Assembly (NCBI RefSeq): GCF_001661965.1
Contig: NZ_LYWZ01000022.1
Span: 868,001-932,000, forward strand
Source: Croceicoccus mobilis
Lineage (GTDB): Bacteria > Pseudomonadota > Alphaproteobacteria > Sphingomonadales > Sphingomonadaceae
Reading direction: 5' to 3'
Length of the DNA stretch: 64,000 nucleotides
The notes under the pieces were generated by a model. That model was not told where the DNA came from, ran no database searches, and was given only the letters and a program-made list of their open reading frames with translations. This document shows, in pieces, positions 23,010 to 25,300 of the stretch. Every line of letters starts with the position of its first letter. The stretch's first letter is position 1. The translations under genes and the position numbers were made by a program.

Positions 23010-23075
23010 AATGTCGCGTGACCTTGGCAGTATTGAGCAATGACTTGCCCGGGATTGGGTGCTAACGCCGTGCCC

Positions 23076-23147
23076 ATGGCAACGCAGCGCACCACTACGA
23101 CCACTACCGGCACCCGGCTCGCCCCGGGGCGGTTGGTCCTGCGTTAA
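23076..23147 (+). CDS. Threonine-rich leader peptide upstream of thrS
   Basis: A 23-codon frame from ATG 23076 to TAA 23147 contains eight threonines, six of them consecutive (codons 6-11, 23091-23108), and a further Thr at codon 13. It ends 140 bases before the thrS start. A run of codons for the very amino acid handled by the downstream synthetase is the hallmark of a ribosome-stalling attenuation leader, as in thrL of the enteric thr operon. The ribosome site is weak to my eye. The peptide itself is probably not functional; its translation is the sensor. Confidence 0.7.
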   Translation: MATQRTTTTTTGTRLAPGRLVLR

Positions 23148-23176
23148 GGCCAGCTGCCGCCCGGGGGTCCGGGCGG
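23121..23176 (+). promoter_or_regulatory. Mutually exclusive hairpins: candidate threonine attenuator of thrS
   Basis: Segment 3/4 hairpin: CCGCCCGG (23157-23164), loop GGGT, CCGGGCGG (23169-23176), eight perfect pairs. The same left arm can instead pair with 23122-23132 inside the leader frame (ten pairs, one bulged G at 23126). A ribosome stalled at the Thr codons leaves 23122-23132 free, so the alternative pairing would form; a ribosome that reaches the stop would cover it and the 3/4 hairpin would form. No clear U-tract follows the hairpin, so the mechanism of termination is uncertain (Rho or hairpin pausing are possible). Confidence 0.55.
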
Positions 23177-23287
23177 ATGGCGTCTCCTCCCGGTTTCCGC
23201 TGAAATAAGACTGACGCCGCCCCTTCCGGTGCGCGCGCGCCTGTGCCAAAGCGCGGCGCTAAGGTAATTTGAGCGAAGACGATTGCG

Positions 23288-25300
23288 ATGACGGAACTTG
23301 TGAAGATCAGCCTGCCCGACGGTTCGGTGCGCGAGATGCCGGAAGGGTCGACCCCCGCCGATGTCGCTGCCGCGATCGGCCCCGGCCTTGCCAAGGCGGC
23401 GATCGCCGCGCGCGTCGATGGCGAGTTGGTCGACCTGACCCGTCCCTTCGCGGGCGATGCCGAGCTGGCGTTGGTGACGAGCCGCGACGAGGACGAGGCG
23501 CTGGAGCTCGCCCGCCACGATTTCGCCCATGTGCTGGCAGAGGCGGTGCAGGCGCTGTGGCCCGGCACGCAGATCACCTTTGGCCCGGCGACCGACGACG
23601 GTTTCTATTATGACGTGATGGCGCCCGAGGGCCGCGAGCCGTTCAGCATGGACGATCTTCCCGCCATCGAGGAAAAGATGCGCGAGATCATCAAGGCCGA
23701 CAAGCCGCTGGTCCGCGAAGTCTGGTCGCGCCAGCAGCTGATCGACCGCTGGAATGCGCAAGGCGAGAAGTTCAAGGCCGAATGGGCCGCCGAACTGCCC
23801 GAGGGCGAGGAACTGACCGTGTACTGGTCGGGCCAGCCAAGCAGTGAAGGCGCATGGCTCGATATGTGCCGGGGCCCGCATCTGCCTTCGACGGGCAAGC
23901 TCGACCCGCAGGCGTTCAAGCTGATGCGCGTTGCCGGTGCTTACTGGCGCGGCGATCAGAAGAATGCGCAGCTCACGCGTATCTATGGCACCGGCTGGCT
24001 GAATAGAAAGCAGCTGAACGCGCACCTCACGCGGCTGGAAGAGGCCGCCAAGCGCGACCACCGCAAGCTGGCGCGCGAGATGGACCTGTTCCATTTGCAG
24101 GAAGAGGCGCATGGCTCCGTCTTCTGGCATCCCAATGGCTATAAGGTCTGGCGCGAGCTGGAAGCATATATGCGCCGCGCCATCGACGGGGCCGGATATC
24201 AGGAGATCAAGACCCCGCAGGTGATGGACGCGCGGCAGTGGGAAAAATCGGGCCACTGGGGCAAATATCGCGAAAACATGTTCGTGGTGCCCGACGAGGT
24301 TCCGAACGTGGAAGACGAGGGCGACGTCATTTCGGGCGAAGCCGACTGGATGGCGCTGAAGCCGATGAACTGCCCGGCCCATGTGCTGGTCTTCAAACAG
24401 GGCATCACCAGCTATCGCGAACTGCCGATCCGCCTGTATGAAAACGGCTGCTGCCACCGGAACGAGCCGCACGGCGCGCTCCACGGGCTGATGCGCGTAC
24501 GGCAGTTCACGCAGGACGATGCGCATATCTTCTGCCGCGAGGACCAGATCGTGGCCGAAGTGCGCGCCTTCTGCGAACTGGCCGACCGGGTCTACAAGGA
24601 TTTCGGCTTCACCTATTCGATCAAGCTGGCCCTGCGCCCCGAAAAGCGTTTCGGCAGCGAAGCCGACTGGGACAAGGCCGAGGACGAGCTGCGCAACGCG
24701 GTGAAGGAAGCGGGCCTCGCCACCGAGGAATATGGCTGGGAGGAACTCCCCGGCGAAGGCGCGTTCTATGCGCCCAAGCTGGAATGGCACCTGACCGACG
24801 CCATCGGCCGCACCTGGCAGGTGGGCACGATCCAGTCGGACCGCGTGCTGCCCGAACGCCTCGACGCGACCTATGTCGGCGAGGATGGCGAGAAGCACCG
24901 CCCGGTCATGCTGCACCGCGCGATCTTCGGGTCCTACGAACGCTTCATCGGCATTCTGATCGAGCATTTCGCCGGCAAGCTGCCCGTGTGGCTGGCCCCC
25001 GTGCAGGCGGTGGTCGCGACCATCGTTTCGGACGCCGACGATTACGCGAACGAAGTGGTCGCCAAGCTGCAGGCGGCGGGCATCCGCGTCGAAAGCGATC
25101 TTCGCAATGAGAAGATCAATTACAAGGTGCGCGAACACAGCCTTGCCAAGGTCCCGCACCTGCTGGTCGTGGGTAAGCGCGAAGCGGAGGAAGGCACTGT
25201 CGCCATTCGTACGCTGGGCGAAAAGGAACAGAAATTCTGCTCGCTCGACGAAGCCATCGTCATGCTGAAGGGCGAGGCGAGCGCGCCCGACCTGCGCTGA
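23288..25300 (+). CDS. thrS: Threonyl-tRNA synthetase
   Basis: A 670-residue class II synthetase charging tRNA-Thr. The N-terminal TGS domain covers residues 1-60 ([21 protein letters not shown]). The editing domain follows, with [12 protein letters not shown] and the DGFYYD and [11 protein letters not shown] segments. The catalytic core contains [11 protein letters not shown] (zinc-ligand Cys) and [20 protein letters not shown] (motif 2 with a zinc His), and the anticodon-binding domain begins near residue 570 ([14 protein letters not shown]). The length is normal (about 640-670). It is preceded by a Thr-rich leader and hairpins (23076-23176), which suggests threonine-dependent control. It converges with the DUF1294 gene. 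Confidence 0.98.

Follow-up and report, generated by a model that had tools for sequence, protein, structure and literature searches.

A conserved threonine-codon leader with competing helices upstream of thrS in Sphingomonadales, a candidate ribosome-mediated attenuator without a U-tract

Introduction

The gene for threonyl-tRNA synthetase (ThrRS), thrS, is a classic example of autogenous control at the translational level in Escherichia coli, and is under T-box control in Firmicutes. Synthetase genes can also be under cognate-codon attenuation, as for E. coli pheST, which is preceded by the pheM leader and an intrinsic terminator. The element described here lies upstream of thrS in a 64,000-nt stretch of the Croceicoccus mobilis genome (hereafter the window, whose positions are used throughout). 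It shares with pheST/pheM the association of a synthetase gene and cognate codons; pheST differs by its intrinsic terminator, its amino acid and its lineage. If thrS is governed by a Thr-codon attenuator, as comparison suggests for many genomes of one family, with apparently separate origins in other Alphaproteobacteria, this would add a third solution to E. coli autoregulation and the Firmicutes T-box.

Leader peptides have been proposed for several synthetase genes. In Streptomyces lividans, the accessible part of one report proposes leaders on thrS, leuS, trpS and alaS (PMC8079986). The thrL leader proposed there before thrS carries only two Thr codons (MKRVRPFLETTPGFVPAR) and belongs to an actinobacterium, and no comparative helices are described in that part of the report; its start is leaderless, as is probable for the element studied here, and as in that element no uridine-rich sequence is present, a likeness that holds at the level of description only. 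The same text states, for some Streptomyces leaders, the same uncertainty about how they work without a canonical terminator. In Caulobacter, attenuation has been proposed for a leader coding sequence before trpS, as given in the available portion of PMC4117421.

uORFC-8-2, found before cysS in Rhodobacterales (PMC8632094), likewise combines an alphaproteobacterial synthetase gene with a short ORF of cognate codons and a proposed ribosome-mediated attenuation. It differs by its tandem Cys codons, its two prominent stems and its 3′ run of U, which marks an intrinsic terminator, and the element of the window, with Thr codons and no U run, falls outside its definition. trpL/rnTrpL of Sinorhizobium meliloti, as far as the sections available describe it (PMC7298713, PMC10117765), is likewise a leaderless leader ORF of an alphaproteobacterium with mutually exclusive terminator and antiterminator; it is an established attenuator of a Trp biosynthesis gene, whereas here a synthetase gene is concerned and no U-tract is present. 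For S. meliloti duf1127 and E. coli tnaC, a leader ORF and the position of the ribosome decide Rho-dependent termination (PMC12218461), as proposed below for thrS, but these systems sense translation inhibition or tryptophan, and neither a Thr run nor a five-segment fold is described in the part of the article available. The thrS element probably works like the synthetase leader-peptide attenuators previously proposed for cysS, trpS and S. lividans thrS. The literature searched, which was partly available as excerpts, did not describe a Thr leader before thrS in Sphingomonadales.

Results and discussion

A Thr-rich leader ORF precedes thrS

The region upstream of thrS includes the following features:

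23040..23068, + strand: inferred promoter P1, with a -35-like ATGACT (23040-23045), a 17-nt spacer and a -10-like TAACGC (23063-23068), from sequence and relatives
23076..23147, + strand: leader ORF of 23 codons, 8 of them Thr, from sequence and relatives; its mRNA is probably leaderless
23224..23259, + strand: conserved block with TGTGCCAA (consensus TGTGCCATGG) and G+C-rich flanks, from the alignment of relatives
23288..25300, + strand: thrS, threonyl-tRNA synthetase of 670 aa, identified by Pfam

As read directly from the sequence, the leader ORF runs on the + strand from the ATG at 23076 to the TAA at 23145-23147 and encodes MATQRTTTTTTGTRLAPGRLVLR, with six of its eight Thr codons consecutive (23091-23108). 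A pattern of six successive ACN codons occurs in two places in the 4.2-Mb genome, the leader and the inside of one long ORF (3 matches in total, of which two overlap, compared to 21 for a reversed control pattern). The observation of a Thr-rich leader before thrS is thus exact and is not due to chance. The downstream product carries the TGS, tRNA_SAD, class II core and anticodon-binding domains of ThrRS, as judged by Pfam.

We compared 87 distinct thrS upstream regions, after removal of 5 duplicates and of 2 loci without upstream DNA (L010 and L029). Of these, 62 have a Thr-rich ATG ORF (at least 4 Thr in 8 codons) no more than 450 nt from thrS, and 57 still qualify at a threshold of at least 5 Thr. 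In 3 more regions (L040, L047 and L048) the leader lies about 700 nt upstream of thrS, beyond a small gene. The remaining 22 regions, including that of Croceicoccus ponticola, carry no Thr leader in the upstream DNA examined, which covered only 334-364 nt for three of them (L038, L062 and L093). The element is therefore dispensable. The conserved block at 23224-23259 (CTT...TGTGCCATGG in many relatives), which may serve as a second promoter or form a hairpin, is kept in L074 and in C. ponticola (L005), both without leader; in the latter, no leader occurs within 1500 nt.

Among the 62 relatives carrying the leader, the peptide is 23 aa long in 43 and contains 4-12 Thr, while the sequence around the Thr run varies, as for example in MTQQRTTTTTTTTRHARARLVAA or MAKRVTTTTTTTTSDFRGRLSLV. 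The codon ACT accounts for 103 of the 455 leader Thr codons (22.6%) in these 62 regions; its share in the window's genome, taken over 239 long ORFs, is 6.7%. The corresponding binomial P of 6e-28 takes no account of relatedness and sets many species against a single genome, and is only indicative. Frequent use in the leaders of a Thr codon that is rare in that genome possibly tunes their sensitivity to tRNA charging.

A promoter-like TA box close to the leader ATG

According to simple definitions of our own, a TA begins at -15 to -10 from the leader ATG in 55 of the 62 leader-bearing relatives (background 0.11 per 7-nt window), and SD-like 3-mers are found before the leader ATG in 12 of the 62, versus 57 of the 62 before thrS. 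In the relatives, a TGAC-like box lies about 20 nt further upstream of the TA box. A simple promoter/terminator scan gave no match at all, and the P1 boxes in particular were not reported by its sigma-70 consensus. Given the proximity of the TA box to the leader ATG and the scarcity of SD-like 3-mers there, we infer that the transcript begins at the leader AUG, or very close to it, and is a leaderless mRNA. A start upstream of 23147, on which the preliminary description relied, is in keeping with the -10-like box found shortly before the leader ATG in these 55 relatives, the start site itself being deduced from the box.

Competing helices covary among relatives

The leader and the downstream region can be divided into segments with alternative partners:

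23113..23117, + strand: segment 1 (CCCGG), pairs with 23124-23128; the hairpin 1:2 region folds in all 53 aligned sequences
23122..23136, + strand: segment 2, within the ORF, partner of segment 1 or segment 3 (covariation of 2:3)
23151..23166, + strand: segment 3, partner of segment 2 or segment 4 (covariation of 2:3 and 3:4)
23168..23177, + strand: segment 4, partner of segment 3 (terminator-like hairpin 23157-23176) or of segment 5 (covariation of 3:4 and 4:5)
23179..23184, + strand: b (GGCGTC), left arm of b:b′ (covariation)
23186..23193, + strand: segment 5 (CCTCCCGG in the window, consensus CCTCCCGAA), partner of segment 4 (covariation of 4:5)
23213..23218, + strand: b′ (GACGCC), right arm of b:b′ (covariation)

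The hairpin CCGCCCGG-GGGT-CCGGGCGG, first pointed out from the sequence alone, is indeed present at 23157-23176, and 23122-23132 (CCCCGGGGCGG), proposed at the same time as its antagonist, can pair with its left arm. The computed energies in the window are -26.8 kcal/mol for the 2:3 duplex and -18.6 kcal/mol for hairpin 3:4. Helices 2:3 and 3:4 are mutually exclusive, with segment 3 common to both, and 4:5 competes with 3:4. Folded singly, 23076-23287 is not exceptional in stability (z = -0.43; 70 of 200 shuffles equal or exceed it). The evidence is therefore comparative and not thermodynamic.

For the comparison, 53 of the 62 leader regions were aligned (alignment A1), leaving out L013, L014, L015, L043, L052, L069, L081, L087 and L102, which are divergent or carry hairpin insertions. 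A second, shorter alignment of 50 rows (A2) corresponds to A1 without the near-duplicates L008, L057 and L094. RNAalifold alone kept only 12 pairs, as the alternative helices compete, and was replaced by counting named helices. Since the rows are related, the shuffle counts given below are not probabilities.

In A1, helix 2:3 is paired in 86.1% of cells, with changes on both sides in 8 of its 12 pairs; none of 500 shuffles reached it on any of five measures, and sliding the partner reduced the paired cells to 35-72%. One of its pairs alone is GC in 36 rows, AU in 10 and CG in 1. Helix 3:4 is paired in 95.0% of cells, including one pair that is GC in 41 rows and AU in 10; 1 of 500 shuffles reached it on three measures, but on the other two, the pair and type counts, 305 of 500 did so. 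Thus, as anticipated in the preliminary description for a genuine attenuator, the Thr run and the competing pairings are kept in relatives with compensatory changes.

Two further helices that had escaped the preliminary description, 4:5 and b:b′, also covary. Helix 4:5 is paired in 94.8% of A1 cells, with 16 cells changed on both sides (shuffle mean 4.4, reached by 0 of 500); its pair and type counts were reached by 46 and 16 of 500 shuffles, respectively. In the nine rows with A at column 105, its 4:5 partner at column 121 is U in all nine and the 3:4 pair is broken in eight. As these rows keep 4:5 while the 3:4 pair is broken, 4:5 is supported independently of 3:4. Helix b:b′ is paired in 92.3% of cells, with 22 cells changed on both sides (shuffle mean 5.1, 0 of 500), and its pair and type counts were reached by 215 and 437 of 500 shuffles. 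Five A1 rows form only 2 of the 6 b:b′ pairs, which we take as misalignment because in A2 at least 5 of the 6 pairs form in 49 of the 50 rows (pair 103:140 being CG in 37 and UA in 13). The hairpin 1:2 region folds in all 53 sequences with -14.1 to -4.8 kcal/mol; its register shifts, and no covariation was observed in fixed columns of A1.

Constrained folding of the 53 sequences gave a mean difference of -1.8 kcal/mol (sd 7.9) between the state with 3:4 and b:b′ and that with 2:3 and 4:5, the second being more stable in 21. On average the two states are close in energy, as expected of a switch. For the window's own sequence, the former (-55.7 kcal/mol) is 11 kcal/mol better than the latter (-44.7 kcal/mol), and 2:3 alone (-58.4 kcal/mol) beats both. 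If 6 or more of the 8 pairs are required for 4:5 and 5 or more of the 6 for b:b′, the two helices can form jointly in 46 of the 53 sequences, with connecting loops of 2-4, 0-2 and 10-17 nt which, on geometry only, allow an H-type pseudoknot.

Distribution of the element

A covariance model (R1) built from 50 sequences was run on 296 Sphingomonadales genomes, and matched 91 of these in 23 of 80 genera. In 88 of the 91, some of which are of the same species as R1 training rows, the match precedes thrS, in two cases with one small gene between. Thirty matches were fetched as loci and all have thrS 49-81 nt downstream as well as a Thr leader; among 15 doubtful ones, 12 precede thrS and 3 are spurious (G281, G157 and G069, E 0.007-0.009); the other 46, including the window, each lie just upstream of thrS, as judged by eye from the coordinates. 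By our count, all 88 verified matches belong to the family of the window (88 of 213 genomes, compared to 0 of 83 in seven other families). The figure of 88 is a lower bound, as only 8 of the 125 genomes of this family without verified match were checked for a missed leader. In these 8 and in 22 genomes of the seven other families, 30 Sphingomonadales genomes without match in all, the 450 nt before thrS never contained more than 4 Thr codons in a stretch of 8.

In 108 thrS upstream regions of Alphaproteobacteria outside Sphingomonadales (sets of 28, 20 and 60, two of the last ending at contig ends), at least 5 Thr in 8 codons were found before thrS in 4. Two of these, L172 (G354) and L267 (G434), carry the same genus label; in both, an ACCCTCC...GGAGGGT stem and T6 (U6) lie behind a short ORF rich in Thr. 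This lineage has a candidate for a textbook-like Thr attenuator with a U6 intrinsic terminator. The other two, L176 and L168, have a Thr-rich ORF with hairpins, and no U-tract was seen. Thr leaders on thrS seem therefore, on this comparison, to have had more than one origin.

Hairpins not followed by a U-tract

The absence of a U-tract, already conceded as a weakness in the preliminary description, is confirmed by the terminator scan and by the 53 aligned sequences. The 8 nt following 3:4 contain 0-3 T in 52 of them and 4 T in one; the corresponding numbers are 0-4 after 4:5 and 2-4 after b:b′. Within 60 nt of 3:4 the longest T run is 2-4 in 51 of the 53 sequences, and 5 and 6 in one each. By eye, these two were identified as L003 and L004, which are closely related to the window; their run lies in the b:b′ loop, not directly behind a stem. 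With more than 4 T in the following 8 nt in none of the 53, a role of the hairpin 23157-23176 as an intrinsic terminator is not supported, and we do not classify the element as a classical intrinsic-terminator attenuator. T-tailed hairpins are present, though not abundant, at other gene ends of the window's genome: in 400 kb, 5 of 39 strong gene-end hairpins had at least 5 T in 8, versus 2 of 59 controls, a modest excess. The consistent lack of a U-tract in the thrS leaders makes testable how ribosome-mediated attenuators work without a canonical terminator.

Since no U-tract follows the hairpins, Rho-dependent termination is favoured. The stretch between b and b′ is 37% C and 15% G. Such a C-rich, G-poor sequence suits Rho, but is shorter than the C>G site of about 90 nt described in the available part of PMC12218461. 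The OFF step would thus be premature termination, Rho-dependent or otherwise U-less and most likely the former, which is the leading though unproven output.

A gene inserted between leader and thrS

Five loci (L040, L047, L048, L235 and L236) carry a gene between the leader and thrS, of 163-168 codons in L040, L047 and L048. The product in Aurantiacibacter zhengii (L040) shows a weak match to the Rv2179c-like 3′-5′ exoribonuclease family (PF16473; 19.7 bits, below the 27-bit cut-off). Helices 3:4 and 4:5 fold in all five loci. A b:b′-like stem of different sequence belongs to the minimum-energy fold of L235 and L236, is partly formed in L040 and L048, and is not formed in L047. By eye, the right arm of this stem lies within about 20 nt of the ATG of the inserted gene in the five loci, beside a purine-rich stretch. 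With this exonuclease-like gene in between, the five loci offer a natural setting in which a transcriptional output could be told from a translational one.

In the same five loci, a CTTGCCTAG...GGCATAG motif precedes thrS and is possibly its own promoter.

A model for thrS control and its alternatives

The comparison of relatives supports the Thr run, its place before thrS and the helices 2:3, 3:4, 4:5 and b:b′. We propose that the element is a ribosome-mediated attenuator in which the supply of charged tRNA-Thr sets thrS expression, a reading to which we give a probability of roughly 75%. The Thr-rich peptide would be translated from a leaderless mRNA starting at or near the leader AUG. When Thr-tRNA is scarce, the ribosome would stall in the Thr run and cover segment 1, so that segment 2 could pair with segment 3 and segment 4 with segment 5, and thrS would be read. 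When Thr-tRNA is plentiful, the ribosome would reach the stop codon and cover segment 2; the 3:4 hairpin would then form next to b:b′, and reading into thrS would fall. The direction of control suggested by this arrangement is that more enzyme is probably made when charged threonine tRNA is short. The attenuator proposed in the preliminary description thus stands for its conserved Thr leader and competing pairings, not for its intrinsic terminator, and is extended by 4:5 and b:b′. The support is good for a control of thrS in which the ribosome responds to Thr-tRNA charging, but not for the output step.

A more specific version, which we put forward tentatively and consider less likely than not, is a five-segment, U-less class of attenuators. 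In shortage, 2:3 would form and 4:5 together with b:b′ would build an H-type pseudoknot barring Rho, while in the fed state the segment 5 C-rich stretch would be exposed to Rho. If true, synthetase control would operate via Rho loading and not via a terminator hairpin.

The same sensing could alternatively change how well the downstream message is translated or how long it lasts, for example with b:b′ near a ribosome-binding site. Both the lack of a U-tract after the helices and the position of the b′ side near the ATG of the inserted gene, at the purine-rich stretch, in L040, L047, L048, L235 and L236 would fit such an output. In the usual arrangement, however, b′ is far upstream of thrS: in the window its last base is 23218, which leaves 70 nt to the thrS ATG, so that it cannot cover the thrS ribosome-binding site. 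We regard this output as unlikely. More improbable still is that ThrRS represses its own translation in the E. coli manner, the TGTGCCAT block near thrS mimicking the tRNA-Thr anticodon and the Thr ORF being secondary. A conserved block does lie between leader and thrS, often with UGU, and the ThrRS here has the N-terminal TGS and SAD domains; but the UGU of the TGTGCCAT block is not invariant (TTCTGCC and CTATGCC variants occur), which weakens the idea of an E. coli-like operator, and autorepression leaves the Thr run and the upstream covarying helices unexplained.

We give very little credit to an unregulated leader, in which the Thr-rich ORF and the inverted repeats of a G+C-rich genome would be fortuitous or part of a constitutive 5′ leader. 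It would agree with a fold no better than shuffles and with the 22 of 87 relatives devoid of leader, but is contradicted by the conservation of the element before thrS in 88 genomes, by the covariation of four helices and by the absence of at least 5 Thr in 8 codons from all 30 Sphingomonadales genomes without match. The Rfam search, at the gathering threshold, found only two tRNAs elsewhere in the window and no T-box; the only other match was P15 (11.8 bits, E 3.2), on the other strand and below threshold.

Other observations at the thrS locus

A 671-codon open frame antisense to thrS (23144-25159, - strand) is very probably a shadow ORF, a by-product of the G+C-rich codon usage. In the leader-less regions L060, L078, L085, L089, L093, L098 and L101, a GCTAAG- or GCATAG-like box was noticed by eye about 8-10 nt before the thrS ATG; in these, thrS itself may be leaderless.
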